64,000 nt of DNA, from contig DYIU01000002.1 in NCBI GenBank assembly GCA_020723485.1, positions 529,543-593,542 on the forward strand. The letters are read 5' to 3'. The notes beneath the pieces are model-generated. The model saw only the letters and a list, made by a program, of their open reading frames with translations. It made no database searches and had not been told where the DNA came from. The stretch comes from Acidimicrobium ferrooxidans (GTDB lineage Bacteria > Actinomycetota > Geothermincolia > Fen-727 > Anoxymicrobiaceae). The position numbers were made by a program, and so were the translations under genes. Of the stretch, positions 278 to 38,502 are shown piece after piece (positions within the stretch are counted from its first letter, which is position 1; every line of letters begins with the position of its first letter).

Positions 278-527
278 AAGCAACACGTGATGATTGACTG
301 GCGTGGTGCGCTTGGAGGGATTCGAACCGCCCTCCGTCGCTTCGCTCTCCATAGGGGGGGCAGGCCCCCCTCTGGCGCTCGCTCACGCTCGCTGTCACCC
401 CCCCCGAGTCAGATTTCCGGGGGGATGCTCCCCCCGGAAAGAAATCGACCCCCCTGTCGGGGATTCGAATCCCTCCAAGCAACACGTGATGATTGACTGG
501 CGTGGTGCGCTTGGAGGGATTCGAACC
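278..527 (-). mobile_element. tRNA-3'-end-nested palindromic element A (at tRNA-Arg): 51-bp direct repeats 278-328 / 477-527 flanking a GC-rich hairpin core with an inverted T-arm copy (461-480)
   Basis: Direct comparison: identical AAGCAACACGTGATGATTGACTGGCGTGGTGCGCTTGGAGGGATTCGAACC at offset 199; inverted GGATTCGAATCCCTCCAAGC at 461-480; 12-bp hairpin TTTCCGGGGGGA-TGC-TCCCCCCGGAAA at 414-440. Confidence 0.85.
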
Positions 528-578
528 CCCGACACGTGGCTCCGGAGGCCACTGCTCTGTCCCCTGAGCTACAAGCGC
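503..578 (-). tRNA. tRNA-Arg (anticodon CCG), CCA encoded
   Basis: GCGCTTG-TA-GCTCAGGGGACAGAGC-A-GTGGC-CTCCGGA-GCCAC-GTGTC-GGGGG-TTCGAAT-CCCTC-CAAGCGC-A-CCA; cloverleaf folds, anticodon loop CTCCGGA. Confidence 0.95.
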
Positions 579-32306: not shown

Positions 32307-32319
32307 GAGGACATGATAT

Positions 32320-32414
32320 TGCAACGCCGGGGTCAGGTCACTTTGTTGCGTTTCACAGGTGCACAAGGTCAGCCGCATTCAAACGCAACAAAGTGACCTG
32401 ACCCCGGTGTTGCA
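32320..32414. repeat. REPIN-like inverted repeat: two ~34-nt arms (32320-32353 and 32381-32414)
   Basis: TGCAACGCCGGGGTCAGGTCACTTTGTTGCGTTT ... AAACGCAACAAAGTGACCTGACCCCGGTGTTGCA; reverse complements with one mismatch. Confidence 0.9.
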
Positions 32415-32427
32415 TTAGACTGGGGGC

Positions 32428-34553: not shown

Positions 34554-34735
34554 AGGGCCGGCGACGCACGGCTCCCCACGGCGAGTAACCTTTGCCACCT
34601 TTCTTCGTTTTAGCAGGGTAAGGTAACATAGTGGTGCGACACTCTTGGCTCGACGCGTCGCGAATCGGAAGCGTGCTACTCACAACCGGCAGAAGACACG
34701 TGCAAATACGCGAATACCTGAGACTGGGGGTAACG

Positions 34736-37700
34736 ATGTCAGTTTCTGCATCAAGGCTCGCCAGGGCCTCCGTGGCCGTGGCGCTCTCGATGGCGCTCGC
34801 CCTCCTGATAGTCCCCGCGCTGGCGCCGCAGGCCCACGCCCAGCCCATTACGGGTGCCATATCCGGGACGGTCAGGCTGCCCGGGGGCGCACCCATGGCC
34901 GGGTGCAATATCGAGGTGCGAGCCTACTCCGATGGTTCCCTGAGGGGCGAGACCACCACTGACGGCGCAGGTTTCTATACGGTTGCAAACCTGGGTGAAG
35001 GCCAGTACGCGGTACATTTCATGCCGGGTGACAACGTTCATCAGAACCAGTGGTATAACGGCAAGACCGACGAGGATTTCAGGAGGCAGACAGACTTGCC
35101 CGACCCGGTAACGGTTACGCCGCCGGATACCACGCAGAACATCAACGCCGCCCTCGTGCGCGGAGCGTCCATATCCGGCAGGGTAACATCGACCGCCGGC
35201 GGTGTTCCCGTGACCTCATGCCTCGTGCACGCGCACATCCTCAGGTGGAACACTCACGGGTGGAGCACCGAGAAGGTCGGCACCGACGCGGTGGACAGCA
35301 ACGGATACTACAAGGTGGGGGCCCTGGAGAGCGCCCCGTACCTGGTGGAGTTCGAGCCCACCGACGACGTGCACGCCGGCGAGTGGTACAACGACAAGCA
35401 GACCAGCAGCAGCGCGACCCGCCTTTACCTTACGGCGCCGAATGAAACGAAGAGCATCAACGCGGTGCTGGCGGCGGGAGGCAGAATACGGGGCAGCGTC
35501 AGGTCATCCACAGGAACTGCGCTTTACGATCACCCGGTCTATCTGAGGATCTACGACAACAGCTCCAAGACGTGGGTCCCGTACTCGGTCGGTGAGAACA
35601 CTACTGATTCCGCTGGTTACTACAGCCTGGGGCCGGTGGCGCCCGGGAAGTACAAGGTCTATTTCGGTGTTCCGGCCGGTACCAAGTCTCATTTCCCCGA
35701 ATGGTACGACGACAAGCAGAGCGAGGACGAGGCTGCCCAGCTCTCCGTGGCGGCGGGCGAGACCAAATCGAACATCAACGCCGTTCTCGCCAAGACCTGC
35801 TTCATCGTCGGCAGGGTCACAAGGGACTGCGGGGATAATGAGCCGATACCCGGGGTCCTGGTCACGGCCTACATGAGGGTCGGAAACAACTGGGAGGTAG
35901 TCGCCGAGGAGAAGACCGACGGTAATGGTGATTACTACATCCTGGGTCTCAAGGCCGGCACGTACAGGGTGAAGTACACCTCGCCCCGGACCGCGTGGTC
36001 GAGCACCTGGTACAACGGCAAGGGCTCGCTGTCCTCGGCGACGAACGTGCCGCTCGAGATCTATGAGACTAGACGCATAAACCTGAAGCTCAAATGGTCG
36101 AACAACACTCCTTACGCCGTCTTTGCCGGTAACGCCTTCAACGATTACGGTGAGGTCCTCACCGGCCTCAACCTGCCCTTTGAACCTTTCAGTGCCGCTG
36201 ACCTGCAGGACGGCTGCCTGCTCTCACACTACAGGTACCTGTTCATGAACTGCACCAACGAGCTCCACGACTGGGACGCGGATCCCTCGGTGCTCCAGCA
36301 GTTCGTGAACGGCGGAGGCTACCTCTTCACTTCGGACTTCGCCGGTTTCACGATGCTCAACCGGTGTTTCCCGGGCCACGTGACGTTCGCCGACCCCGTG
36401 GAGCAGGGAACCGCGCAGAAGCTCACCGGAGCCGTTATCGGCCCTTCACTGAGTGACTACCTGGGCAAGGATGCGACGCCGTTAGTCTACGACCAGGGAG
36501 GCTGGTCGGTCATCAACGGGACACAGGCCGGCACGAGCATCCTCATCAGGGGCAACGTCCATACTGAAAACACCGGAACACTCGCCAACAGGCCCCTGCT
36601 GGTCTCGTTCGCCCACGGCAGCGGCAAGGTCTTCTACAGCACGTTCCACGAGAGCAAGCAGGGTGAGCTCGGAAAGCAGATAGTCTCCTACTACCTCGCT
36701 CAGGGCGCCGCCCGAGGCAGCTGGTACCTCGCCGAAGGTTCGACCGACGGAGGGACTGAGACCTGGCTCACCATTCAGAACCCGAACACGCTCGCCGCAA
36801 ACGTAAGCGTCACCTACATGGGACCCGGGGGAGTCACCTGGGGGCCCACCCTCGCCGTCCCCGGCAAGTCCAGGGCCTCGGTCCAGGTATCAAAGACCAT
36901 AAGGGACTACCAGGTCTCCACCAGGGTGAGCAGTGAGAGCCCGATCGTGGTCGAGCGGTCCATGTACGGGAACAACAACGCCTGGGGTACGGATTCCATC
37001 GGGGTGGTGACCCCGTCCGCGACCTGGTACCTGGCCGAGGGATCGACGAACGGTGGCATGGAGACCTGGATAACCGTGCAGAACCCGAACACCACCGACA
37101 CGAAGGTCTCCCTCACCTACATGACGCCGTCGGGCGCGGTGCCGGGGCCCAGCGCTACCGTGAAAGCCAGGACGCGCATGTCTTTCTATACCGCGGACAC
37201 CGTGCCGAACGTATGGGACGTATCGACGAAGGTGACGAGCGACCTGCCTGTCGTCGCCGAGCGCTCCATGTACGGCAACGGTAAGACCTGGGCCACCAAC
37301 TCCATCGGTGTGGTGAATCCCTCGACCGCCTGGTACCTGGCCGAGGGTTCCACGAACGGTGGCATGGAGACCTGGATAACCGTGCAGAACCCGAACAGCA
37401 CCGACGCGAAGGTCTCGCTCACCTATATGACGCCTTCCGGTTCGGTGAAGGGACCGAGCACTACCATAAAGGCCAATACCCGGAAGTCTTTCTACGTGGC
37501 CGACACTGTGCCGAATGTCTGGGACGTATCGACGAAGGTGACGAGCGACCGACCTGTCGTCGCCGAGCGCTCCATGTACGGCAACGGTAAGACCTGGGCC
37601 ACCAACTCCATCGGTGTGGTGAATCCCTCGACCGCCTGGTACCTGGCCGAGGGTTCCACGAACGGTGGCATGGAGACCTGGATAACCGTGCAGAACCCGA

Positions 37701-37933
37701 ACAGCACCGACGCGAAGGTCTCGCTCACCTATATGACGCCTTCCGGTTCGGTGAAGGGACCGAGCACTACCATAAAGGCCAATACCCGGAAGTCTTTCTA
37801 CGTGGCTGACACCGTGCCGAATGTCTGGGATGTCTCTACCAGGGTAGGGAGCGACTGGCCGGTCGTAGCCGAGCGCTCCATGTACGGCAACGGCAAAAGT
37901 TGGGCCACCAACTCCATCGGGTATTCACCGTAG
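34736..37933 (+). CDS. Large secreted/surface protein: carboxypeptidase-regulatory-like repeats plus four ~102-aa WYLAEGST repeats
   Basis: Signal peptide MSVSASRLARASVAVALSMALALLIVPALAPQAHA; repeated ISGTVRL...GFYTVANL modules; C-terminal repeats starting at 36722, 37025, 37331, 37637. Confidence 0.85.
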   Translation: MSVSASRLARASVAVALSMALALLIVPALAPQAHAQPITGAISGTVRLPGGAPMAGCNIEVRAYSDGSLRGETTTDGAGFYTVANLGEGQYAVHFMPGDNVHQNQWYNGKTDEDFRRQTDLPDPVTVTPPDTTQNINAALVRGASISGRVTSTAGGVPVTSCLVHAHILRWNTHGWSTEKVGTDAVDSNGYYKVGALESAPYLVEFEPTDDVHAGEWYNDKQTSSSATRLYLTAPNETKSINAVLAAGGRIRGSVRSSTGTALYDHPVYLRIYDNSSKTWVPYSVGENTTDSAGYYSLGPVAPGKYKVYFGVPAGTKSHFPEWYDDKQSEDEAAQLSVAAGETKSNINAVLAKTCFIVGRVTRDCGDNEPIPGVLVTAYMRVGNNWEVVAEEKTDGNGDYYILGLKAGTYRVKYTSPRTAWSSTWYNGKGSLSSATNVPLEIYETRRINLKLKWSNNTPYAVFAGNAFNDYGEVLTGLNLPFEPFSAADLQDGCLLSHYRYLFMNCTNELHDWDADPSVLQQFVNGGGYLFTSDFAGFTMLNRCFPGHVTFADPVEQGTAQKLTGAVIGPSLSDYLGKDATPLVYDQGGWSVINGTQAGTSILIRGNVHTENTGTLANRPLLVSFAHGSGKVFYSTFHESKQGELGKQIVSYYLAQGAARGSWYLAEGSTDGGTETWLTIQNPNTLAANVSVTYMGPGGVTWGPTLAVPGKSRASVQVSKTIRDYQVSTRVSSESPIVVERSMYGNNNAWGTDSIGVVTPSATWYLAEGSTNGGMETWITVQNPNTTDTKVSLTYMTPSGAVPGPSATVKARTRMSFYTADTVPNVWDVSTKVTSDLPVVAERSMYGNGKTWATNSIGVVNPSTAWYLAEGSTNGGMETWITVQNPNSTDAKVSLTYMTPSGSVKGPSTTIKANTRKSFYVADTVPNVWDVSTKVTSDRPVVAERSMYGNGKTWATNSIGVVNPSTAWYLAEGSTNGGMETWITVQNPNSTDAKVSLTYMTPSGSVKGPSTTIKANTRKSFYVADTVPNVWDVSTRVGSDWPVVAERSMYGNGKSWATNSIGYSP
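36722..37930 (+). repeat. Four tandem ~303-306 bp in-frame repeats; units 3 and 4 near-identical
   Basis: WYLAEGST(D/N)GG(T/M)ETW(L/I)T(I/V)QNPN... recurring every 101-102 codons. Confidence 0.9.
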
Positions 37934-37996: not shown

Positions 37997-38071
37997 GGGC
38001 GTTTAGCTCAGCGGGAGAGCGCTGCCTTCACACGGCAGAGGTCACTGGTTCAATCCCAGTAACGCCCACCA
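37997..38071 (+). tRNA. tRNA-Val (anticodon CAC), CCA encoded
   Basis: GGGCGTT-TA-GCTCAGCGGGAGAGC-G-CTGCC-TTCACAC-GGCAG-AGGTC-ACTGG-TTCAATC-CCAGT-AACGCCC-A-CCA. Confidence 0.95.
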
Positions 38072-38301
38072 CGCATACTTAACCTCCACTCATCGCGTTA
38101 CTGGGATTGAACCAGTGACAGGGGGGTTATGCCTTTTTCCGGGGGGAAGGTCCCCCCGGAAATCGTCCATGGGGGGTCACAGCGAGCCCGCCCTGCGGGC
38201 GAGCGCCATAGGGGGGCTTGCCCCCCTGTGGGGAGCGGAGCGACGCAGCGAAGCGAGGAGAGCAGCGACGTCACTGCGTTCAATCCCAGTAACGCCCACC
38301 A
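38072..38301 (+). mobile_element. tRNA-3'-end-nested palindromic element B1 (at tRNA-Val): inverted T-arm/acceptor copy, hairpin core, direct 3'-end copy
   Basis: Inverted copy GCGTTACTGGGATTGAACCAGTGAC 38095-38119 (25 nt perfect complement of tRNA 38041-38065); hairpin TTTCCGGGGGGA-AGG-TCCCCCCGGAAA 38136-38162; direct copy 38270-38301 GTCACTGCGTTCAATCCCAGTAACGCCCACCA. Confidence 0.85.
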
Positions 38302-38502
38302 CTCCAATTCAGCGATTAGGCCACGCGTCTGGGTGCAGAACCAGTGATGGGGTCACCGCGCGCCGCACTGCACGATCACCATGCGGGCTGCGAATTCCAT
38401 CTGACATTGCAGTGGCGACCTGATATTGATCTGAATAAGATCTAAATCAATTCCTGGAGCCTCGCGGCGTGTGGGGTGGTTCAATCCCAGTAACGCCCAC
38501 CA
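38302..38502 (+). mobile_element. Degenerate tandem element B2 with third tRNA-Val 3'-end copy
   Basis: 23 nt after the second CCA: degenerate inverted copy GCGTCTGGGTGCAGAACCAGTGAT (38325 on); third copy GGTTCAATCCCAGTAACGCCCACCA at 38478-38502. Confidence 0.65.

Follow-up and report, generated by a model that had tools for sequence, protein, structure and literature searches.

The window analysed here, i.e. the whole stretch of 64,000 nucleotides, carries on its forward strand an intact tRNA-Val(CAC) gene with an encoded CCA (37997..38071; detected by ARAGORN and matched by Rfam RF00005 at 68.7 bits). Just upstream lies a large protein (34631-37933) with tandem repeats of about 100 residues (WYLAEGSTNGGMETWITVQNPN). 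Downstream of the tRNA, on the same strand, a G-poor spacer (38072..38094), which we count within the element from its sequence and from the comparison with shuffles given below, leads to an inverted repeat, IR-L (38095..38119). The first-pass annotation described IR-L as a perfect 25-nt inverse complement of the T-arm and acceptor 3' strand of tRNA-Val, placed 23 nt past the CCA with its outer edge opposite C70. Repeat comparison gives precisely this: 25 of 25 positions match, and the complemented segment is 38041-38065. Then comes a core of the kind we call type A (38120..38269), delimited by sequence comparison and a covariance model, with three hairpins: P2 (TTTCCGGGGGGA-AGG-TCCCCCCGGAAA, 38136..38162), P3 (CCCGC-CCT-GCGGG, 38187..38199) and P4 (AGGGGGG-CTTG-CCCCCCT, 38210..38227). 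The element closes with a direct copy of the tRNA-Val 3' end through CCA (38270..38301), a displaced or duplicated target that we call the right copy. Its sequence and coordinates had been given correctly, but the extra C that distinguishes it from the tRNA (GTCACTG[C]GTTC) had gone unmentioned. We abandoned the rule that every right copy carries an additional base at a distance of seven bases from the core, since about a dozen of them are exact.

The first-pass annotation also missed what follows immediately on the same strand, a second element (38302..38502) with another core, type B (GGGGTCACCGCGCG..GCGTGTGGGG), and a like end plan: its inverted T-arm, which is degenerate, lies near 38323-38348, and it closes with a third copy of the tRNA-Val 3' end (38477-38502). 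Type B cores (GGGGTCACCRCGCG..GCGYGTGGGGTGG), bearing an inverted T-arm and a right tRNA copy as type A cores do, are found as well behind Asn-GTT (L014), Ala-GGC (L026), tRNA-Ile of genome G007 (L198), and Arg-TCT (L081) and Val (L075) of genome G003. Hence, the architecture of the ends is not tied to one core. The other type A element of the window lies on the reverse strand behind tRNA-Arg(CCG) (503..578). It occupies 278..480, with IR-L at about 455-480, the core at about 332-454 and a right copy (278-331) made of the tRNA 3' end plus spacer; the direct repeat at this locus thus also takes in the spacer past the CCA (278-331 equals 477-530 at 98%). The Val and Arg cores had been said to align, and they do so at 76% over about 146 bp; both reach 98.6-105 bits with one covariance model, which was built from seven copies including these two. 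A 37-bp inverted repeat (95%; GGGGTCAGGTCAC..GTGACCTGACCCC) at 32317-32417 is an unrelated intergenic palindrome.

We searched the genome of the window (G000) with a covariance model of the type A core, R1, and took the 3' flanks of its 48 tRNA hits. There are 12 core copies, each directly downstream of a tRNA, a tmRNA or, for one copy, a tRNA fragment. The hosts are Lys-CTT, Arg-CCG, Ile-GAT, Val-CAC, the tmRNA, Ala-CGC, Leu-GAG, Ser-CGA, Thr-TGT, Gln-TTG and Pro-GGG, and the twelfth copy follows a partial tRNA-Pro at the distal end of a 2.4-kb island. This island, at tRNA-Pro(GGG), has a type A element at each end (L022 13249-16000; C5:120048-122809) and encodes a nucleotidyltransferase (MntA-like) and a HepT-like protein; the partial tRNA-Pro that bounds it begins in the anticodon loop. 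A thirteenth R1 match, weak and antisense, overlaps the Lys copy. R1 lists no copy away from tRNA or tmRNA sites in G000, and a truncated relic behind Thr-CGT is not in its list. An initiator-type tRNA-Met of the same genome (L030) has, 108 nt downstream, a perfect inverted T-arm and acceptor copy, which no core follows and which may be a relic. Further trailers recur behind tRNAs of G000, namely GGTAATTG..CTACCCCCAACGT..ACGTTGGGGACCCC (L016, L027, L032) and GCCAGGTCGAACTTACCC..TTTGGATGCC (L030, L017, L035).

Among relatives, R1 matches 6 of 10 genomes in the family; within the order 8 of 14 have a match and within the class 9 of 32, with none in the 17 genomes of families f5 and f7; most of the genomes compared are fragmented MAGs, and the genus of the window is represented by one genome. 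Three carriers are named uncultured Actinomycetota MAGs. A pattern scan of genome contigs returned three uncultured Actinomycetota MAGs of the family and one chance match in Wenxinia; the same kind of scan found no element in viral contigs, nor was any found in the phages and plasmids scanned. Outside genome G016, wherever there is enough unmasked upstream DNA, the core is always preceded by a tmRNA or by tRNA sequence, the latter sometimes only as a fragment or an end; at L077 and L084 the tRNA-matching repeats alone are visible. The tmRNA hosts an element in four genomes (G000, G004, G009, G012), so the common feature of the targets is the T-arm and acceptor, not the anticodon arm.

These copies share one plan: intact tRNA, spacer, IR-L, core and right copy, in about 160-220 bp free of genes. 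At tRNA-bearing loci the element is invariably downstream and in a single orientation. The spacer usually has 12-26 nt and is G-poor. Its similarity between different tRNAs of one genome exceeds that of all 300 shuffles in G000, G007 and G013, so all or part of it moves with the element. The last six bases of the tRNA are missing from IR-L. The right copy extends from about the T-loop as far as CCA, or as far as the mature end for genes that encode no CCA (G009), and frequently reaches upstream past the T-loop to about position 46. The core, of about 90-120 nt, has the three hairpins described above. Covariation, which the first-pass annotation suggested looking for, was tested for P2: we count 25 double-change cells, whereas shuffles average 7.2 and none of 500 attains that count, and all controls with slid pairing fall below the true register. 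P3 varies in sequence, and inspection of the copies indicates that its pairing is possible in most of them. The segment between GAGCG and AGCGACG is variable, with a further hairpin possible, by eye, in many copies. These hairpins are probably recognition structures of a single strand or of RNA. Nothing resembling a terminator was found that would allow the element to be read as one. No Rfam family exceeds its gathering score; there are sub-threshold matches only, of which an HDV-like one on the opposite strand (E 0.36) was taken as chance.

The first-pass annotation held that the core is common to the loci while the ends match each host tRNA, and the comparison of all copies bears this out. 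Confronted with 7 to 48 candidate tRNAs, IR-L matches its own tRNA best in 26 of 36 elements and the right copy does so in 28 of 36. The former is a low figure, owing to detection errors of the script (tmRNA in G000 and G009, Ala in G007, Arg beside His in G004), and most of the remaining rank failures are close seconds or such errors. Cores behave otherwise. For 28 of 49 copies the nearest core belongs to the same genome (permutation mean 6.7, maximum 20), whereas for three it stands behind the same tRNA in another genome; copies behind the same tRNA in different genomes (0.712) are scarcely more alike than unrelated copies (0.699). Within a genome, cores with host-matching ends stand almost identical behind different tRNAs: 99% between Ser-CGA and Thr-TGT in G000, 95-99% among Ser, Gln, Tyr and Arg in G007, 96-98% among seven copies in G013. 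The observation made at the Val locus is therefore real and no artefact. Chance is excluded by the perfect 25-nt inverted match at such a distance, by the position of all 12 core copies of G000 behind tRNA or tmRNA sequence, and by the frequency with which IR-L prefers its own tRNA. Since the ends differ between sister copies whose cores are 99% identical, they must either be drawn from the target or be rewritten at the new site.

Some copies are also old and vertical or locus-bound, because G000 and G003 have orthologous elements at Val-CAC (79% over 294 bp, including the spacer). The T-arm difference between these two genera occurs in tRNA-Val and in both right copies; this matched difference is local concerted evolution and bears out the earlier proposal that ends are either taken from the target or evolve together with it. 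One might then think of the elements as long-term residents of tRNA trailers, functional structured RNAs within the transcript of the tRNA or tmRNA, inherited vertically and with cores homogenised within a genome by gene conversion. The orthology at Val, the constant downstream position in one orientation and the covariation of P2, which fits RNA or single-stranded DNA, speak for this explanation. Yet, occupancy is patchy even within the class (9/32 genomes, with 0/17 in f5 and f7), cores are scarcely more alike behind the same tRNA, and there are tandem arrays, copies away from tRNAs and truncated relics. Moreover, the Ser, Gln and Tyr sites occupied in G007 are empty in G008. Permanent residence is thus unlikely in our view.

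This last comparison, made between congeneric species, also bears on movement. Three genes that carry elements in G007, namely Ser-GGA, Gln-TTG and Tyr-GTA, have plain trailers in G008, while truncated relics stand at Arg-ACG, Arg-TCT and Thr-TGT of G008; elements decay as well. Behind tRNA-Ile (type B) and tRNA-Ala (type A) of G007, the native trailer is found not after the tRNA but after the right copy, and it is of the type that directly follows element-free tRNAs in G008. Hence, the unit was inserted between the tRNA and its trailer. Together with the empty sites of G008, this indicates that the family moves, with ends supplied by the target or rewritten in place. Three further features of these two genomes deserve mention. 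Behind tRNA-Ile, tRNA-Val and tRNA-Glu of G008 (L186, L189, L194) there is a trailer element whose tRNA-like 3' end (GGTTCAAATCCACTATTGTCCACCA) is nearly fixed and unlike that of the host tRNA, a contrast case with ends that do not adapt. In G007 a MITE with terminal repeat GTACCCCGTCCCATAAATACGG and a probable TTAG target duplication (L203, L199) lies within a second, truncated copy of the element behind tRNA-Gln. Finally, tRNA-Gln and tRNA-Tyr differ between G007 and G008 (L203/L181, L211/L180) by a compensatory change of a T-stem pair, both G007 T-arms being GCAGG..CCTGC; these are two tRNAs, too few for interpretation.

If the inverted arm were copied from the tRNA as the element inserts, it should be best matched right after insertion. 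We tested this idea and found it unsupported: the IR-L of younger copies does not match better but slightly less well (Mann-Whitney p = 0.04; Spearman p = 0.25), which leaves copying upon insertion undemonstrated. The first-pass annotation had named ends unlike the neighbouring tRNA as evidence against its view. The rule of matching ends holds overall, with exceptions in G013 and G016. In G013 a Ser-GCT element has the 3' end of tRNA-Tyr, a Ser-TGA copy has the end of another tRNA-Ser, and a double unit at Ala-CGC closes with a Ser end. In G016 most copies lie away from tRNA genes, and these units start at or near GGTTCG, inside palindromes CAAAAGGGTC..GACCCTTTTG; one such unit (L164) starts at GGTTCG and bears a tRNA 3' end. 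There are tandem arrays, with ends taken from another tRNA at L112 and L113. Arrays, foreign ends and the L164 unit are the behaviour of recombination. The exceptions suggest that recombination takes place at the T-arm palindrome or close to it and that copies exchange sequence; they appear to be secondary events, by recombination or relocation, which leave the rule standing.

Which known elements behave like this? The closest are the tDNA islands sought by Islander, in which a tyrosine integrase crosses over at the T-loop or at the T/acceptor junction. Such islands leave a regenerated tDNA and a displaced fragment; their crossovers lie in the anticodon, the T-loop or the T/acceptor junction, and some of them use host Xer (PMC4383910). 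The elements described here share with them the regenerated tRNA, the insert, the displaced 3' fragment in direct orientation with native sequence continuing behind it, the tandem arrays and the use of tmRNA. They differ in that they have some 160-220 bp and no gene, hence no integrase inside, that one core stands behind many tRNAs, that sister copies differ in their tRNA end, and that the left end holds an extra inverted T-arm. Islander discards candidates under 2 kb or lacking an integrase (PMC4383910), and elements of this kind would therefore be missed. MITEs are likewise gene-free and dispersed with terminal inverted repeats, but theirs are fixed, whereas here the ends vary with the host tRNA, even between copies whose cores reach 99% identity. 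Integron attC sites are also folded imperfect palindromes, often with an unpaired base in one arm; here there are no cassettes, no attC consensus was noticed by eye, and both Xer-like genes of G000 score below the integron-integrase cut-offs. The literature searched, like Rfam, holds no description of the family or of any mobile element with host-matching ends of this kind, in agreement with the first-pass annotation, which did not recognise it.

We incline, with some reserve, towards a non-coding and non-autonomous mobile element that inserts at the 3' ends of tRNA and tmRNA genes by means of a recombinase supplied in trans and of rewritten arms. By comparison of copies, the unit between the regenerated tRNA and its displaced 3' copy consists of spacer, inverted T-arm and structured core. 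Most likely, the elements are miniature tDNA islands without integrase and the right copy is the displaced tRNA end. The recombinase, most likely a tyrosine recombinase encoded by the host or a resident island, would act on the T-arm palindrome and leave the segment from T-loop to CCA in two copies, as in tDNA islands. Fold-back or template-switch copying could then make the inverted arm complementary to the resident tRNA, or keep it so, and the direct copies would be matched by local gene conversion. Recombination can make direct copies uniform. Template switching is known to homogenise the arms of inverted repeats (PMC8604942). A plain att-site model is insufficient, because an element-borne tRNA end would give sister copies identical acceptor ends. 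Our confidence in a tyrosine recombinase as mobiliser is low to moderate. No recombinase gene was seen within any copy, and no enzyme family tracks the distribution of the element across the genomes. PF00589 genes occur in every genome of the order, with only two in each of G002, G004 and G013; G000 has four such proteins, two of them XerD-like and XerC-like. G000 also has a phage-type tyrosine integrase gene at tRNA-Lys(TTT) (L176, C10), an ordinary tRNA-targeting element.

The hairpins might instead have been recognised by a Y1 HUH transposase. REP, REPIN and CGTC-tagged palindromic repeats are short non-coding hairpin repeats that spread within genomes, mobilised in trans or by an unknown enzyme, and the end of our core, AGCGACG, reads CGTCGCT on the opposite strand. 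A RAYT (TnpA-REP) would thus move a folded single strand, with REP-like hairpins and cleavage of the T-arm palindrome. REP recognition requires a hairpin and, in E. coli REP, unpaired stem bases (PMC8266576). RAYT genes lie just behind tRNA-Ala(GGC) in G000 and G009 (L026, L083) and behind tRNA-Ser(GCT) in G000 (L033), the latter with a relic of a right end, and motifs resembling types B and C flank one RAYT gene of G000. The RAYT 3' end CGCAGGTTTGAATAAC recurs as a dispersed, T-arm-like repeat CCGCAGGTTTGAATCAC behind several tRNAs. But Y1_Tnp is unmatched in G007, G013 and G002 (assemblies 82-85% complete), two of which show the most recent bursts, and RAYTs are present in genomes without elements. 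None of the three loci read has a RAYT gene with a type A core on both sides. To our knowledge, HUH peel-and-paste transposition does not duplicate its target. The REP-like families also lack the strict tRNA/tmRNA location, the target-matching ends and the three-hairpin core, and the consulted part of the survey of CGTC repeats (PMC3733652) reports no such family, and the word Actinobacteria is absent from that paper. We regard a RAYT-type mobility as doubtful.

Casposons insert at the 3' ends of tRNAs with a target duplication drawn from the tRNA end. Right copies that span from about the T-loop to CCA or the mature end, with the native trailer next, invite the thought of a 20-31 bp target-site duplication, produced by a staggered cut between the T-loop and the mature 3' end by some other integrase. 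Yet, right copies often extend past the T-loop to about position 46, and duplication of the target leaves IR-L unexplained. Here there are no genes, and an inverted copy of the target lies inside the element. Cas1 is absent from all element-bearing genomes of the order, and the two genomes that have it are element-free. This makes a casposon-like transposition improbable. Still less credible is a reverse-transcribed or tRNA-primed retroelement, even though a structured core next to a segment complementary to tRNA resembles a primer-binding site. RVT_1 is unmatched in 7 of the 8 element-bearing genomes of the order, and IR-L omits the very end of the tRNA. In G009, tRNA genes that do not encode CCA have right copies without CCA, so the gene, not the mature tRNA, was the source of the copy. 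By definition, the element is neither a casposon nor a retroelement, and Cas1 and reverse transcriptase are disfavoured as movers.

A bolder variant is that the termini are templated by the target, i.e. that insertion itself duplicates the tRNA 3' end and writes an inverted T-arm copy beside the core. We consider this possible, though not the better bet, and know of no transposition chemistry of the sort. Mobile elements are normally known by their fixed ends, and elements whose ends follow the target escape both sequence searches and island finders. Those described here raise two questions that can be put to the test: how a gene-free unit of 200 bp moves among many tRNA genes while leaving them unbroken, and how its inverted arm becomes re-matched to each tRNA. 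They also offer a natural system for the study of local concerted evolution between tRNA genes and their neighbours. If termini templated by the target were true, they would represent a transposition chemistry in which every copy wears the ends of its host.
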